A stretch of DNA of 64,000 nt, from the NCBI GenBank assembly GCA_028873795.1, contig JAPPNP010000054.1, positions 19,708 to 83,707 on the forward strand, read 5' to 3'. The notes below the pieces were generated by a model. The model saw only the letters and a program-made list of their open reading frames with translations, was not told the DNA's origin and did no database searches. The stretch is from Chloroflexota bacterium (GTDB lineage Bacteria; Chloroflexota; UBA11872). The position numbers and the translations under genes are program-made. Of the stretch, positions 23,762-55,718 are shown one piece after another. The stretch's first letter is position 1, and every line of letters begins with the position of its first letter.

Positions 23762-24793
23762 CTAGCTCCCGATGAACGCTGATTCCGGGTAGAAGTCTCG
23801 CCAGGCCCAGTCGAACGAGGATGTCCACGGCACTGGGCTAAGGGCTTGGCCCGCCAGCGGGCCGCTGAGCGCCAGACCGTTGACCGCGCTCCAGACTGTG
23901 CCCGTCTCGTGATCGCGCAGGGTGTCGTCGCCCGCTGGGTCGAAGTTCAGCACGCGGTTCGCCACTCGACGCAAGTAGGCCCGCACGGTGCCTGTGGCCT
24001 CATCGACCCAGACCAGCACGGGCTCATCGCCGACCGTCAGCTGCACCAATCCCGCGACCCGCGCGTGGCCGAATTCGACCGCCGCGGCCGCGTCCCCCAG
24101 GGCGAGGCCGACTACCCAGTTCTCGCGAGGCGTCGCCAGGACGAGGCGCGGACCGCTCAGGCCGTTGGCCAGCACCCGCGCGTCGGGATGGCGCGCGCGG
24201 AACCCGGCCCAGGTGTCAAGGGTCGAAGGAATTTGCGTGAGGGTCGCACCTCGAAGCTCGCCGACCAGGGCCCGGCCAATCGGCTGGCTCCAGATGCTGC
24301 CCGTCGAATGGTCGAACCACGTCATGGCGGTCTTGTACAGCGCGCCCTGATTGCCAAAGACCAGCGACTGGCCCTCGAATCGCCGGTCGTGCACGAGACC
24401 GGTGTAGCAAAGCGGTCACCAGGTGACGAGCACCGGCGTGCCGCCGACGACGTCGTTGACCATCTCGCGCCGGTTGAGCGTGGTGACCGGATAGGCGCGG
24501 GCCTCACCGCCGATCACGAGTCCGATGACCAGCTCATCCGGCTGCAGCGGCGCATCGACGGCGGCAACGAACTGCGGCGCGTAGATGGGCGGGATGGCGT
24601 CGCGGCTGAGGCGCTGGTCGTAGGCCGAATCGAACATCATCCGCTCGTGCGGATCGGGGAGGTCCTGCGGCGGCCGTGCGACTCGCGAAGCCTCCGGCGA
24701 GCCGCGAATCGCCCACACCAGGGCCAGCGCACCCACTGCTGCCAGGGTCAGCCCGACTGCGACCACTGCCGCGATTCCTAGTCGACGCCGCAT
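23762..24793 (-). CDS. DUF3179-like protein with in-frame TGA (candidate selenocysteine) at 24416..24418
   Basis: ORF 24416..24793 ends ...NDVVGGTPVLVTW then TGA, and the SAME frame continues PLCYTGLVHDRRFEGQSLVFGNQGALYKTAMTWFDHSTGSIWSQPIG... to 23762. DUF3179 proteins typically have PVLVTWCPLC here, so TGA replaces the conserved Cys. Confidence 0.8.
24383..24402 (-). promoter_or_regulatory. Candidate bacterial SECIS-like stem-loop downstream of in-frame TGA
   Basis: mRNA-sense CCGGTC-TCGTGCAC-GACCGG: perfect 6-bp stem and 8-nt loop, loop starting at nt 23 counting the T of TGA as 1. Confidence 0.55.
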
Positions 24794-24848: not shown

Positions 24849-26447
24849 TCAGCGCAGCGCGACCTGCAGCGCCTGGGCGATGTCGTCCACCGGAATGAAG
24901 GTGATGTCGTCGTGGATTCGGGGCGGAAGCTCGTCGAGGTCGCGCTCGTTGCCGCGCGGCAGCACCACGCGGCGCACGCCGGCGCGATGGGCTGCGAGCA
25001 CTTTCGGCGCGACGGCGACGGTGGGCTCGACCCGACCGTCCACCGACAAGCTCCCGGTCGAGGCAAGCTCCGGGTCAACCGGACGATCGCGTGCCAGGGA
25101 CACGATCGCGATGGCCACGGCAAGCGCCGCAGCGGCCTGGTCGTTGCTCAAGGTGCTGCGTGGCACCTCGACGTGCATGTCGAACTCCTGCAGGAAACGC
25201 GCCGAGACTTGAAGATCCGACAGACGCGCGCGGATGGCCGCGGTGACGACCATCAACTCCCTTGAGACATCGGCGCCATTCGTGTCGAGCATCGATATCC
25301 GACCTAGCCCGGGTATGAGGGCATGGCCGAGCCCGGGCATGAGCACCGCCAACACGACGCCGTGCCGACCTCCGTGCTCATCAATCACCAGTGCGGCGGT
25401 ATGGCCGCGTCGTTGCGCGCGGCGGTCGCGACGCTCAGGAAGGAGCGGTCTGCCGGCAAGATCGAACAGGTCTTCGCTCGCGATGACGCTCGGAGTGTCG
25501 GCACGCTGCACGCCGGCGACCAGGGACCGGCGGACGATGCGCCGTAGCAGGTCGTCCAGTCGAGCGACGCCTGCCTCGTCGGTGTAGCTCCGGATCAGCA
25601 CCAGAAGGGCGTTGCCGTCAATCGTCAGGTCGGTGGGGGTCAGGCCATGGTCGGCCAGCGCCGCAGGCATCAGGGTTCGCCGGGACAGCTCGGTTTTCTG
25701 ATCGATCAAGAAGCCGGGTAGCTCCGCGACGTCAAGCCGAGACAGGTCGTCCGCCGACAGGGATTGGGTCCAGCGGCAGGTGACGATGATGAGCGTGTGC
25801 GAGAGATCGAAGGGAACGTCGAAGAACGGGTCGCGGACGCTGGCGCGCCGGTGAGCGTCGGTGAGCCGCGCCAGCAGTGTGCCGATGTCGGCGCCCCATC
25901 GTTCGGCGGCGCGGTCGAGTCCCGCCAGTACAACCACGGCCTGGTCCGACTGCGCCTGCTCAACGGCGCCCATGAGCGCACCCGGCTGGCCGCGGCGCTG
26001 CCAAATCTCCGCCGCCGCGCCGAGTTGTGCCAGGTCAATGACCTCAACTGGTCGGTCAAGCACCCTTGCAATGGTTCGCGCGACAACCGTCTTGCCCACT
26101 CCATCGGGTCCGTGCAGGCAGAGGAGACGCTGCGGTGCGTGCGACGGTTGGGCGGCTGTTTGGCGGGCGTCGTGCGCTGTCACATGTTCGGCAATGGTCG
26201 CAACGGCTTGCGGCGGCGCGAAGTGCTCGGACTCCAGGGCGCTCCTGAGCGGGGCGATCGCGAGGGGTTTCGCAGGGCCGCGTGTCCAGGGCAGTCCGAT
26301 GGCACGCGTGAGGCTTGCGCTGTCCGCCTTGGAATCATCCAAGCGTGCGGACAAGGCTTGGGCCGCCTCGTCGGGCAAATCGGCCTCGGCGAGGCGAGTC
26401 CGCAGGTCGGCTGGATCCACCGTGCACTCCACCCCGGCGACACGCAC
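24849..26447 (-). CDS. Lon-like AAA+/S16 protein with degenerate catalytic motifs (putative pseudoprotease)
   Basis: Walker A LHGPDGVGKTVVA; C-terminal HVEVPRSTLSNDQAAAALAVAIAIVSL...TGSLSVDGRVEPTVAVAPKVLAAHRAGVRRVVLPRGNERDLDELPP aligns with Lon [20 protein letters not shown]...[34 protein letters not shown]. Confidence 0.85.
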   Translation of the reverse strand: MRVAGVECTVDPADLRTRLAEADLPDEAAQALSARLDDSKADSASLTRAIGLPWTRGPAKPLAIAPLRSALESEHFAPPQAVATIAEHVTAHDARQTAAQPSHAPQRLLCLHGPDGVGKTVVARTIARVLDRPVEVIDLAQLGAAAEIWQRRGQPGALMGAVEQAQSDQAVVVLAGLDRAAERWGADIGTLLARLTDAHRRASVRDPFFDVPFDLSHTLIIVTCRWTQSLSADDLSRLDVAELPGFLIDQKTELSRRTLMPAALADHGLTPTDLTIDGNALLVLIRSYTDEAGVARLDDLLRRIVRRSLVAGVQRADTPSVIASEDLFDLAGRPLLPERRDRRAQRRGHTAALVIDEHGGRHGVVLAVLMPGLGHALIPGLGRISMLDTNGADVSRELMVVTAAIRARLSDLQVSARFLQEFDMHVEVPRSTLSNDQAAAALAVAIAIVSLARDRPVDPELASTGSLSVDGRVEPTVAVAPKVLAAHRAGVRRVVLPRGNERDLDELPPRIHDDITFIPVDDIAQALQVALR

Positions 26448-26611: not shown

Positions 26612-26965
26612 GTGAGGTTTACCGTGGCTGCAGCACAGATGTCTTCGAACGAAGTCGATGTCCATGAGGCCAAGGCATTGGTCGAGAAGGACGAAGTCCG
26701 GGTGATCGACGTTCGGACCCAATTTCCGTTTCCGGCCATGCCGGGGGCGGAGTATGTGCCGCTCGAAGACATCCTGGCGCGGCCGACCGAGGCGATCCCC
26801 ACCGACAAGCCGATTCTTTTCATCTGCAACGTCGGTCAGACCAGCGGCGTCGCCACGCAGATGGCGACCGCCCTGGGTCTCAACCAGGCCTACAACATGC
26901 AGGGCGGCATGGAGGCCTGGGAAGCCGCCGGCTATGACACCGAGGAGCCACCGGACGGACACTAG
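26612..26965 (+). CDS. Rhodanese-domain protein
   Basis: VHEAKALVEKDEVRVIDVRTQFPF...KPILFICNVGQTSGVATQMATALGLNQAYNMQGGMEAWEAAGY. Confidence 0.92.
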   Translation: MRFTVAAAQMSSNEVDVHEAKALVEKDEVRVIDVRTQFPFPAMPGAEYVPLEDILARPTEAIPTDKPILFICNVGQTSGVATQMATALGLNQAYNMQGGMEAWEAAGYDTEEPPDGH

Positions 26966-27009: not shown

Positions 27010-27849
27010 GTGTTCAACGTCGAGCAGGTTCAACGATATAGCCGGCACATGCTGCTGCCGGAGGTTGGCGTCGCCGGTCAAATGAAGCTCTTGGACGCCA
27101 GCGTCGTGGCCATTGGAGCCGGGGGCCTCGGTTCGCCGGTGCTCTATTACCTGGCCGCCGCCGGCGTGGGCAAGCTGGGCGTGGTGGACTTCGATGTCGT
27201 CGACCGCTCCAATTTGCAGCGGCAGATCCTGCACCGCGAGGACCGCGTGGGCCTGCCCAAGACCGGGTCCGCGGCCGAGACGCTCACCGGGCTCAACTCC
27301 GACGTGGAAGTGATCGAGCACAACGAGCCGCTGACCTCCGAGAACGCCATGGAGGTGCTGGGCGACTACGACGTGATCGTGAACGGCTGCGACAACTTCC
27401 CCACCCGCTACCTCGTCAATGACGCCGCCTACATGCTGGGCAAGCCCGTGGTCGACGGCAGCGTGCTGCGGTTCGAGGGCATGTCGACGGTCTTCGTGCC
27501 CGGCGAAGGCTGCTATCGCTGCCTCTACCCCACGCCGCCGCCCCCGGAAATGGCGCCGAGCTGCTCCGAGGCCGGCGTGCTGGGCGTGCTGCCGGGCCTG
27601 GTGGGTCTCATCCAGGCCACGGAGACGATCAAGGTGATCTTGGGCACCGGCGACACGCTCGCCGGACGGTTGCTGCTGTTCGACGCCCTGGCCATGGAAT
27701 TCCGCGAGCTGAAGCTGCGGCGAGACCCCGACTGCCCGCTGTGCGGCGATTCCCCCACGGTCACCGAGCTGATCGACTACGAGGAATTCTGCGGCTTCGC
27801 CGGCGGCGACCGCGCCTCGCAGCCGGTCGAGGCGGGAGTTGCGGGGTAG
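27010..27849 (+). CDS. ThiF/MoeB/HesA-family E1-like adenylyltransferase
   Basis: RYSRHMLLPEVGVAGQMKLLDASVVAIGAGGLGSPVLYYLAAAGVGKLGVVDFDVVDRSNLQRQILH; CxxC pairs GCYRC and CPLC. Confidence 0.93.
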   Translation: MFNVEQVQRYSRHMLLPEVGVAGQMKLLDASVVAIGAGGLGSPVLYYLAAAGVGKLGVVDFDVVDRSNLQRQILHREDRVGLPKTGSAAETLTGLNSDVEVIEHNEPLTSENAMEVLGDYDVIVNGCDNFPTRYLVNDAAYMLGKPVVDGSVLRFEGMSTVFVPGEGCYRCLYPTPPPPEMAPSCSEAGVLGVLPGLVGLIQATETIKVILGTGDTLAGRLLLFDALAMEFRELKLRRDPDCPLCGDSPTVTELIDYEEFCGFAGGDRASQPVEAGVAG

Positions 27850-50849: not shown

Positions 50850-50903
50850 CGGGATGAACCTCCTGCGCGGCAGCGTGCCGGCGGGTTTCCGTGGCGCGGC
50901 CGG

Positions 50904-52100
50904 TCAACCATCGAGAACGGAGATGTCGAGAACGGCCCGGCGAATGGTCTGCGACGGCAGCTCGCCGGTGCCCATCTCACGGGTGAAGTCGGAATGGGAG
51001 TAGACCACGTGCAGCCGGTCGTCGCGCTGCATGGTCGAGGTGTAGGAGCAGCCGGGTCCGGTGTGGAAGGCGAACGGCACTTCCCAGTGACGCCCGGTGC
51101 CGTCCAGGCTGAGGGTCACGTGGGTCACCTGCGGGTGCCCGTAGGCCCCGCGACCGGCGGCGCAGGCCAGCACGCCGTTGGGCAGCAGCTCCAAGCGCGG
51201 CTTGACCCCTTGCCAGCCGGCGTTCACAGGGGTCGACCAGGTGCGCCCGCCGTCCTCGGAGCGCGACATATGCATCGGCGAGTACGACCCGGTGCGGAAC
51301 ATGCAGAGGATGTCGTCATTGGCGAGCCTGACCAGGTCGGCCTCGTTGAAGCCTTCGTCCAACCGACGGTCGCCGGGGCCGTAGGTCGGTTTGAGCGCGT
51401 AGGCGTCAAAGGCGTGCACGAAGTCCCAGCTCTTGCCGCGGTCGCTCGAGCGCACGATGAAGACGCTGGTGATCGTCTTGCGCACGCGGTTGGGCAAGGT
51501 CTGCCATTCACTTTCCGGCAGGATCCTGACCCACTCCAACGCCGTGAGGAAGTCGCCGTCGTCAAGCTCGAGCAGGCGCGAGTAGCACTGGTAGGACGCG
51601 CGACGCCACGGCATACCGCGCACCTTGAACGGGAAGCTCTCGATCGGCGTGGCGTCGGCGGTCCAGCGATGGAAGCGGAACGTGGGGTCTTCCTCCTGGA
51701 ACTGGTCGTGATACGGCCCGTGCGCGCGGTCGTAGCCCACGCTCAGCGCGTGCTCGGTGCTGTGGTTGATGCGCACGAAGGAGCCATCGCGCAGGTGTCC
51801 GGTCACTCCGGAGTCGTGGGTCTCGTTGATGAGGCCGGTCCGCGCATCGCGCGAGAGCAGCGGAAAGTCGTTGGGCAAGCGGCGCCAGGTGGCCCCGGCG
51901 TCGTCGGACAGGTAGGCCCACGTGGGTTCCTCGCCGCCGTGGCGGCCGTGGTGAATGGTCATGAAGAGGCGGTCGCCGTCGAGTTCCACGACGCCGGGGA
52001 AGTTGATGATCGACTCGTGGTCTTCCAGCCAGGTGTCAATCCGTTCGACGGCGATCTGGACCGAGCGCCTGCCGTCGGTGTATGTGGCGCTTTCGATCAT
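50904..52100 (-). CDS. BNR/Asp-box sialidase-like protein (array copy 3)
   Basis: SDDAGATWRR, SSDRGKSWDF, SEDGGRTWST. Confidence 0.85.
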   Translation of the reverse strand: MIESATYTDGRRSVQIAVERIDTWLEDHESIINFPGVVELDGDRLFMTIHHGRHGGEEPTWAYLSDDAGATWRRLPNDFPLLSRDARTGLINETHDSGVTGHLRDGSFVRINHSTEHALSVGYDRAHGPYHDQFQEEDPTFRFHRWTADATPIESFPFKVRGMPWRRASYQCYSRLLELDDGDFLTALEWVRILPESEWQTLPNRVRKTITSVFIVRSSDRGKSWDFVHAFDAYALKPTYGPGDRRLDEGFNEADLVRLANDDILCMFRTGSYSPMHMSRSEDGGRTWSTPVNAGWQGVKPRLELLPNGVLACAAGRGAYGHPQVTHVTLSLDGTGRHWEVPFAFHTGPGCSYTSTMQRDDRLHVVYSHSDFTREMGTGELPSQTIRRAVLDISVLDG

Positions 52101-52112
52101 GCGTGCCTGCTT

Positions 52113-53279
52113 TCAGTCATTGTGGGTTTCGACGCTGATCACGGCGCGCCGAATGCGCTGCGAGGGCAGGTTGTGCGTCCCGAACGGTCGTGTGAAGTCG
52201 GAGTCGGAGAAGACGACGTGCAGTTTCCCGTCCCGGACCAACGTGGAGGTGTAGGAGCACCCCGGACCGGTGTGGAAGCCAAACGGCGCTTCCCAGTGGT
52301 TGCCGGTGCCGTCGACGCTGATCATCACGTGGGTGACCTGCGGGTGACCGTAGCCGCCGCGGCCGGCGGCGCAGGTGAGCACGCCGTTGGGCAACAAATT
52401 CAGCCGGGGCTTGACGCCCTGCCAGCCGACCGGCGCGGGCGTGCCCCAGGTGTGGCCGCCGTCGGTCGAGCGCGTTTGCCACATGGGGGAATACGAGCCG
52501 GTGCGGTTGACGCACAGGATGTCGCCGTTGGCGGCGACGACCAGGTCGGCCTCGGTGAGCCCCTCGTCCACGGGTAGATCGCCACCGCCGTAGACCAGGT
52601 TCAACTCCTCCGGTCGAAAGGCGGTGACGAAGTCCCACGTCCGACCGCGGTCGCGCGACCGGACGATGAAGGTCGTCATGGTGATTGCCCAGCGGTGCCG
52701 GCCGTCGTCGAGAATCTTGTCGGTCATCCGCGGCGGGCCCACTTGGGCCTCCATGGCGGCGAGTAGGCTGCCGTCGTCGAGGTCCAGGATCTTGGCGTAG
52801 GTCTGGTAGGAGGCGGTCTTCCACGGCAGCCCGTCGATCTTGAATTCCAGGCTTTCGATGGGCTCGCCGTTGGAGCGCCACGTGCGCACCAGAAACGTCG
52901 GGTCGTCCTCCTGCATCGCCAGGTGGAACGGGCCCGCGTGCTTGTCCCACGTGCGCCGATTGGCCTCGACCGTGTTGTGCTCCAGCCGCATGATCGTGCC
53001 GTCGCGGAGGTAGCCCAGGCTGCCGCCGCCGAACTCCATGCCCGGCGGCGGGTCGCCCCACGATTCGCCGTCGTCGGTCGAAAAGGCGTCGCGATGGGGC
53101 TCCTCGTCGGCGATGGCGTGCTGCGAGCGGCTGAAGCGCATGAACAGGCAGTTGTCGGCGAGCTCGACGACGTGGGGAAAGTTGAGGATGACCTCGGTGT
53201 CTTCCTGCCAGGTGTCGATGCGCTCCACGCCGATTCGCACCGAGCGCGAGCCGTCGGTGTAGATGGCGCTTTCAATCAT
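52113..53279 (-). CDS. BNR/Asp-box sialidase-like protein (array copy 4)
   Basis: Near-identical interior to copy 2, ends resembling copies 3 and 5. Confidence 0.85.
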   Translation of the reverse strand: MIESAIYTDGSRSVRIGVERIDTWQEDTEVILNFPHVVELADNCLFMRFSRSQHAIADEEPHRDAFSTDDGESWGDPPPGMEFGGGSLGYLRDGTIMRLEHNTVEANRRTWDKHAGPFHLAMQEDDPTFLVRTWRSNGEPIESLEFKIDGLPWKTASYQTYAKILDLDDGSLLAAMEAQVGPPRMTDKILDDGRHRWAITMTTFIVRSRDRGRTWDFVTAFRPEELNLVYGGGDLPVDEGLTEADLVVAANGDILCVNRTGSYSPMWQTRSTDGGHTWGTPAPVGWQGVKPRLNLLPNGVLTCAAGRGGYGHPQVTHVMISVDGTGNHWEAPFGFHTGPGCSYTSTLVRDGKLHVVFSDSDFTRPFGTHNLPSQRIRRAVISVETHND

Positions 53280-53291
53280 GCGGGCCGGCTT

Positions 53292-54500
53292 TCAGTCATC
53301 GTGGGTCTCGACGTTGATCACGGCGCGCCGGATGCGTTGCGAGGGGAGTTGGTTGGTGCCCATCTCGCGGGTGAAGTCGGAGTGCGAGAACACGACGTGC
53401 AGCTGGCCGTCCTGGACGAAGGTGGTGGTGTAGGAGCACCCCGGGCCGGTATGGAAGGGGAACGGCATCTCCCAGTGACTGCCGGTGCCGTCGAGGCTCA
53501 GGATCACGTGGGTGACCTGCGGATGCCCGTAGCCGCCGCGTCCCGAGACGGCCGCCAGCACGCCGTTCGAGAGGAGATGGAGCCGCGGTTTCACGGCGGG
53601 CCAGCCCATGCACTCGGGCTCGGTCCACGTATCGCCGCCGTCGGGGGAGCGCGTCTGGAAAATCGGCGAGTACGAGCCGCTACGCATGATCAGCACCAGG
53701 TCGCCGTTGGATGCGATCTCCAGGTCGGCTTCGTCGAATCCCTCGTCGACGGGCCGGTCGTGCGGGCCGTAGACCTGCTCGTGCTCCCAAGGATGGAAAG
53801 CCGCCGTAACTTCCCAGGTTTCGCCGTTGTCGTGCGAGCGGATAATGCCCACCGAGAAGCGCATGTTGAAATGCGGGCGGCCCCGGCGGTCCACGCCCGG
53901 CAGGCGCGGCGGTGCGCCCGCCAGCACGCCCACGGCCGTCAGCAACTCGCCGCCGCCGAGCTCGAGAATCCTGGCGTAGTTCTCGTAAGACCCAGTCTCC
54001 CAGGGCGTGTTCTGCAGCGTGATCAGGCGGTTTTCCAGCGGTTCGCCAGAATTGCTCCAGCGCCGCCAGCGCAGCCTGTGGTCGGCCGTTTGCATGATCG
54101 CGTGCAAGGGACCATCGCGCCGACTCCATTGGCGATGCTCGAGATCGGCCTGGTGGACGTCGATGTGGGTGATGGTGCCGTCTTGCATGTAGCCACGGTT
54201 GCCGCCGGCGAAGGTGAGGTAGTTCTCGCCGGTCAGTGGGTGCGCGTCGAGGAACGGGCTGTCGAGGCCCAGCAACGTCCAGGTGGCGCCGCCGTCCTCG
54301 GAGAGAAAGGTGCGCAGCGGCTCGCCCTCGAAGTCACCGTGACGGGCGTGATTGGCGCTCAGCACCAGCCGATCCCCGTCGAGCACGACGATGCCCGGAA
54401 AATTCACGATGGTGTCGGTGTATTCGACGAACGTGTCGATGCGCTCGACCGAGATGGTGGCGCGTCGTCCGTCGCGTGCGTAGGTGGCCGTGGTCAGCAT
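53292..54500 (-). CDS. BNR/Asp-box sialidase-like protein (array copy 5)
   Basis: Start at 54500 (MLTTATYARDGRRATISVERIDTF); SEDGGATWTL, SHDNGETWEV, SPDGGDTWTE. Confidence 0.85.
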   Translation of the reverse strand: MLTTATYARDGRRATISVERIDTFVEYTDTIVNFPGIVVLDGDRLVLSANHARHGDFEGEPLRTFLSEDGGATWTLLGLDSPFLDAHPLTGENYLTFAGGNRGYMQDGTITHIDVHQADLEHRQWSRRDGPLHAIMQTADHRLRWRRWSNSGEPLENRLITLQNTPWETGSYENYARILELGGGELLTAVGVLAGAPPRLPGVDRRGRPHFNMRFSVGIIRSHDNGETWEVTAAFHPWEHEQVYGPHDRPVDEGFDEADLEIASNGDLVLIMRSGSYSPIFQTRSPDGGDTWTEPECMGWPAVKPRLHLLSNGVLAAVSGRGGYGHPQVTHVILSLDGTGSHWEMPFPFHTGPGCSYTTTFVQDGQLHVVFSHSDFTREMGTNQLPSQRIRRAVINVETHDD

Positions 54501-54565
54501 GGGCCTGAGCTCCTTCGAGCCCTGGCGGGCTGCGGAGGCGTCGTGACCCGAGTACACCACGCCCG

Positions 54566-54600
54566 CACGCGCCGCGCGAGTGTCGCGAGTGCGGCGCGTG
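54566..54600. promoter_or_regulatory. Long inverted repeat in divergent intergenic region (possible operator)
   Basis: cacgcgccgc gcgagtgtcgcgagt gcggcgcgtg, perfect 10-bp arms. Confidence 0.5.
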
Positions 54601-54749
54601 GCACCCGGGTAATCCAATCGTCCAGGCGCTGGCGGGTGGCGGGCCGTGTTGCCGGTCGGCGCACCTATTGAGTAGCATGCCCTTGCTCGGGGAACTTGCG
54701 CAGAGCGGACGCGCAACGCAGACACCGCGCTTCGGCGTGAAGGGATGAC

Positions 54750-55718
54750 ATGACCCAATACATCATCCGTCGCGTTCTCATCTCGATTCCGCTGCTGTTC
54801 TTGCTGTCCCTGACGTCGTTCATCGTCTTCCAGCTCGCGCCGGGCGACCCGATTCAGGCGTTGATCGATCCCGAAGAAATGCTCTACATGGGGCCCCACG
54901 ACATCGAGGAGCTCCTCAAGGAGTACGGGCTCGACAAGCCGGTGCCGGTGCAGTACTTCCTCTGGCTGAAGGAAGCCATCCAAGGCAATCTGGGCTACTC
55001 CATCCAGACGCACAATGTTCCTGTGCTGGAGTTGATCCTCGACCGGCTGCCGCCGACGATCAGCTTGATGACGGCCACGGTGGCGGTGGGATTGGCCCTT
55101 GGTCTGCTGTTCGGCGTGATCTCAGCCCTCTACCAGTACTCGCGAATGGACTACACGCTCACGATCAGCGCCTTCTTCATGCTGTCCGTGCCCGAGTTCT
55201 TCTTCGCGTTGATGGGCATGTTCATCTTTGCGGTGACCTTGGGGTGGTTCCCGACGTTTGGCATGTGGACGCCCGGTGGCGAGACCGGCATTAACTGGGA
55301 CTTGCTGCACCACGCGGTGCTGCCGGTGTTCGCGCTGGCCATGAACGATATCGCCGGCCTGATGCGATATGCGCGCGCGTCGGTGCTCGACACCATTTCC
55401 GCCGACTTCGTGACCACGGCCCGGGCCAAGGGCCTGAGCGAGCGGCTGATTCTCTGGAAGCACGTCTTCCGCAACGCGCTGATTCCGATCGTCACGCTGA
55501 TCGGTCTCCGGCTGCCGGTGCTGTTCGGCGGCGCGCTGATCGTCGAGACGATCTTCCGCTGGCCGGGAGTCGGTTTGCTGGGATACACCGCACTGTTGCA
55601 GCGCGACTACCCGGTGATCATGGGCGTGCTCATCATCTCGTCGGTCATCACGCTGGCGGCAAACCTGCTGACCGATATTGCCTACGCCTGGGTTGATCCA
55701 CGGGTCCGCCACTCATGA
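54750..55718 (+). CDS. ABC transporter permease (DppB/OppB family)
   Basis: MTQYIIRRVLISIPLLFLLSLTSFIVFQLAPGDP; TTARAKGLSERLILWKHVFRNALIPIVTLIGL. Confidence 0.95.
   Translation: MTQYIIRRVLISIPLLFLLSLTSFIVFQLAPGDPIQALIDPEEMLYMGPHDIEELLKEYGLDKPVPVQYFLWLKEAIQGNLGYSIQTHNVPVLELILDRLPPTISLMTATVAVGLALGLLFGVISALYQYSRMDYTLTISAFFMLSVPEFFFALMGMFIFAVTLGWFPTFGMWTPGGETGINWDLLHHAVLPVFALAMNDIAGLMRYARASVLDTISADFVTTARAKGLSERLILWKHVFRNALIPIVTLIGLRLPVLFGGALIVETIFRWPGVGLLGYTALLQRDYPVIMGVLIISSVITLAANLLTDIAYAWVDPRVRHS

Follow-up and report, generated by a model that had tools for sequence, protein, structure and literature searches.

An in-frame TGA as a predicted selenocysteine codon in a DUF3179-family gene of a Chloroflexota bacterium

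The window analyzed in this study was a stretch of 64,000 nucleotides from contig JAPPNP010000054.1 of a Chloroflexota bacterium (assembly GCA_028873795.1). On its minus strand, two open reading frames (24793..24416 and 24394..23762) lay in one frame with a single TGA (24418..24416) as their sole separator, confirming on the sequence what the original prediction had noted of these separately called ORFs. Translated through the TGA, the gene encoded a 343-residue protein reading ...GGTPVLVTW-U-PLCYTGLVHDRR..., in which a Cys at the TGA codon would give WCPLC and Sec gives VTW-U-PLC, a UxxC motif (Table 1). The DUF3179 profile (PF11376) spanned both sides of the TGA with a Pfam score of 218.2 bits (gathering cut-off 27) and was matched by all 38 aligned homologues; a search of NCBIfam with the protein gave no match. 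Apart from the TGA, the window gene had no broken site. Within the genus, dN/dS was 0.21 for the part ahead of the TGA and 0.18 for the part that follows it; judged from these sequences, purifying selection is equal on both sides.

Table 1. Features of the DUF3179 gene in the window, and redoxin-like genes at loci of other Chloroflexota
Feature	Position	Strand	Remarks
DUF3179-family gene, predicted selenoprotein	23762..24793	-	343 residues, ATG start, TAG stop; single in-frame TGA; PF11376 218 bits
TGA in frame at codon 126, predicted to encode selenocysteine; first UxxC position	24416..24418	-	every homologue has either TGA or Cys here
Cys129 of UxxC motif (TGC), probable resolving Cys	24407..24409	-	C129 unchanged across the 38 aligned homologues
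Hydrophobic helix at the N-terminus (residues 2-29), probable membrane anchor	24707..24790	-	AlphaFold model; sequence MRRRLGIAAVVAVGLTLAAVGALALVWAIR
Putative bacterial SECIS hairpin, CCGGUC-UCGUGCAC-GACCGG	24383..24402	-	6-bp stem, 8-nt loop, UGA-to-loop 19 nt
Redoxin/iodothyronine-deiodinase-like genes	L064:4076, L067:4193, L075:4054, L084:5063, L098:3700, L124:4214, L131:4052

The AlphaFold model of the protein (pLDDT 88) had a single N-terminal helix followed by a beta-rich body, in which residue 126 closed one strand and the next strand started at residue 131. In a Foldseek search against solved structures, this model matched Rieske ferredoxins and oxygenases best (probability up to 1.00, E 5e-3, target-normalised TM about 0.6), a kinship of fold that we treat as a lead only, because the E-values were above 1e-3; sequence searches of the protein against solved structures returned nothing useful. 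The ligand loops of Rieske domains are located between two strands, and the UxxC motif of DUF3179 is likewise on a loop between two strands. Unlike Rieske proteins, however, the 38 aligned DUF3179 homologues lacked the conserved CxH...CxxH iron-sulphur ligand set; invariant Cys was confined to positions 126 and 129, His was invariant nowhere, and the family is therefore at most Rieske-like in fold. The second halves of paralogues from the same genome and from relatives matched the same query region, suggesting at the sequence level an internal duplication in the family.

The original prediction held that the TGA stood for a conserved Cys, and it proposed a comparison of homologues as a check. 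Close relatives kept the TGA at this one codon, and homologues without TGA had Cys exactly at codon 126. The TGA was found in all six genomes of the genus (the window genome and five others), the sister genus had TGT or TGC at the codon, and TGA occurred again in remoter families of the order and class, with related species carrying the same TGA in independent assemblies. At 76 further loci, nearly all from Chloroflexota (75 found by scanning 85,462 species genomes and one by scanning viral contigs, some of these records being the same genomes as the relatives examined separately), the codon 126 column held TGA in 61, TGC in 8, TGT in 7, and TAA or TAG in none; these counts, like the p value given below, are not independent draws, because the sequences share ancestry and three changes of the U/C label sufficed on a tree of 82 proteins (a quick tree with weak deep nodes). 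Synonymous codon identity in divergent TGA genes was highest around the TGA, at 0.84 over codons 0..9 vs 0.53 overall. As the Cys clade of the sister genus still had selA, loss of the Sec system does not explain the Cys form. By this comparison of genes, the Sec form predominates in a large branch of DUF3179 from Chloroflexota.

Some individual loci had features of their own. The DUF3179 gene of the cultured SAR202 bacterium Candidatus Lucifugimonas marina JH1073 contained two in-frame TGAs eight codons apart (L100:3232 and L100:3256; VG*LPVLVSW*PIC), the first of which was not seen in aligned relatives. Another locus carried a tandem pair of TGA-carrying DUF3179 matches (L084:3193 and L084:4189), and a paralogue of the Cys type lay close by on the opposite strand. 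A TGA suspected in a genome lacking selA (G019) was rejected, the DUF3179 gene there being of the Cys type with its frame intact.

Counted from the TGA, a candidate SECIS hairpin occupied codons +4 to +11, starting 13 nt past the UGA. At about -10 kcal/mol, it was more stable than roughly 98% of synonymous recodings. Only this local hairpin was significant: the 60 nt that follow the UGA, folded as a whole, did no better than shuffles (z -0.54). The bSECIS limits quoted in PMC13188914 are a stem of 4-16 bp, a loop of 3-9 nt, a spacing of 16-37 nt, and an MFE of -7.5 or lower, and the window hairpin was within all of them. The same rules ask for a G at one of the first two positions of the apical loop. 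In the minimum-energy fold (-10.6 kcal/mol) of the window hairpin the loop began with UC, and a G was so placed only in an alternative fold having a bulge and an additional U-A pair (loop CGUGC, -7.4 kcal/mol vs -10.6). Among divergent relatives, L048, L127, and L128 did have the G there.

Across the family, a hairpin of -6 kcal/mol or lower was present in 64 of 66 TGA genes vs 1 of 15 Cys genes, and the mean was -10.0 kcal/mol in the former vs -3.5 in the latter (Mann-Whitney p 3.5e-10, which is only indicative, as the rows are related). Each stem pair was retained in 65-66 of the 66 TGA genes, and the Cys genes were without the stem; as MAFFT did not place a one-base gap in the loop, pairing was scored in register by a script, after manual adjustment of the shift in four divergent rows. 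The divergent loci L048, L050, L127, and L128 had other stem sequences (e.g., CGGGCA/UGCCCG) that still paired through compensated changes, indicating that the stem was kept and not the sequence.

A search for the Sec genes had also been proposed with the original prediction, and selA (500 bits), selB, selC (tRNA-Sec; Rfam 71 bits, ARAGORN tRNA-SeC tca), and selD were all found in the same genome (3.18 Mb, 89 contigs, 96.6% complete). The selD gene had an in-frame TGA of its own (YSPGAG*ACKLSP; G000:C75:179515-180441, L025), and SelD itself is therefore a predicted selenoprotein. The best formate dehydrogenase match in the window genome was without TGA. Among the relatives sampled, the 11 genomes whose DUF3179 gene of this type had the TGA all contained selA.

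The TGA-carrying DUF3179 gene was closely followed, in seven other Chloroflexota, by a redoxin/deiodinase-like gene. The latter had Pfam matches to AhpC-TSA, Redoxin, and T4_deiodinase, along with its own in-frame TGA (EFGSFT-U-PYC) and its own strong GGAUGGC-type hairpin, and its presence supports a redox role for the DUF3179 protein. This partner was absent from the window genome and its genus. We tentatively suggest, as a possibility that is rather doubtful at present, that DUF3179 may be derived from a Rieske fold whose iron-sulphur ligands were lost and whose ligand loop became a UxxC selenol/thiol site, and that in some Chloroflexota it may form a two-selenoprotein relay with the neighboring Sec redoxin.

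Within the window, the DUF3179 start was preceded, at a distance of 55 bases, by the end of a Lon-like AAA protease gene (24849-26447, minus strand), and a Lon-like gene was in the same position at a locus of the same genus (L059). Rhodanese and ThiF-family genes were in tandem on the plus strand (26612-26965 and 27010-27849), a possible sulphur-transfer pair. At about 50900-55100 (minus strand), successive open stretches of ~400 codons with near-identical ends (INVETHDD*KPARMIES, ISVETHND*KQARMIES) looked like tandem paralogous genes.

The TGA at codon 126 is almost certainly the selenocysteine codon of a DUF3179 redox protein and not the sign of a broken gene, a reading already put forward in the original prediction and favored by the sel genes in the genome, the TGA kept in close homologues, and the Cys found otherwise. 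The frame, its conservation, the hairpin, and the Sec machinery were all established by computation. As TGC and TGA differ by a single base, a true stop in a pseudogene or a sequencing error could have the same appearance; however, the same TGA was present in every genus member and at 61 of the 76 further loci, over many separate assemblies, selection after the TGA was as strong as before it, and no other site in the window gene was broken, leaving this explanation very improbable.

The inserted residue is not given by an in-frame UGA alone, and a general reassignment of UGA (e.g., to Trp, Gly, or Cys) or read-through by a near-cognate tRNA might be proposed in place of Sec. We give such decoding an even smaller chance, as UGA was an ordinary stop here, terminating 48 of the window's 93 long open stretches, the Sec system of the genome was complete and included tRNA-Sec(UCA), and the hairpin accompanied UGA and not Cys. 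Mechanical ORF calling does yield two ORFs, which could be taken for two separate genes, one for a short peptide with the anchor and one for a protein of its own starting at GTG 24394. This arrangement is of similarly negligible probability, as one continuous DUF3179 domain crossed the TGA, the Cys homologues were single genes, and the AlphaFold model joined the two halves into a single fold of high confidence, in which two neighboring strands flank the motif.

Under the selenocysteine reading, we infer that Sec is actually inserted: UGA codon 126 would be decoded as selenocysteine by SelB and tRNA-Sec, directed by the hairpin past the UGA. Sec126 and Cys129 would then pair as the redox center, of a UxxC selenenylsulfide/dithiol type, on the loop between two strands. 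The product would be a membrane-anchored thiol/selenol redox protein, probably located outside the cytoplasm.

DUF3179 has been tabulated as a UxxC/T selenoprotein family (PMC9312934, PMC13188914), which bears out the suspicion in the original prediction that the family might not be new, and the window gene is a well-supported further member. Both papers credit the DUF3179 selenoprotein to Zhang and Gladyshev 2007 (PMC1976440), from an Olavius algarvensis symbiont. Compared by domain and motif only, the window protein had the same Pfam domain and the same form of UxxC motif as the tabulated selenoproteins; whereas the first of these came from a deltaproteobacterial symbiont, the TGA here is the commonest state of one branch of Chloroflexota, a phylum not mentioned, by the spellings searched, in PMC9312934 or PMC13188914. 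The Cys-containing DUF3179 proteins (among them three paralogues in the window genome, and those of the sister genus) belonged to the same domain family and, in those whose motif was read, carried Cys at this point (WCPLC or FCPLC); unlike the window gene, their genes had a Cys codon and no SECIS-type hairpin. A search of a limited literature collection, in which absence is weak evidence, found no paper linking selenoproteins with SAR202. New in this study were the prevalence of Sec in the Chloroflexota branch, the Rieske resemblance of the model, and the second TGA-carrying, redoxin/deiodinase-like gene in seven other Chloroflexota.

Gene callers cut the DUF3179 selenoprotein gene in two, concealing its redox site. 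The Chloroflexota branch in which Sec prevails takes in marine SAR202 bacteria with a cultured member, and the function and selenium dependence of this widespread, unnamed redox family are now testable.
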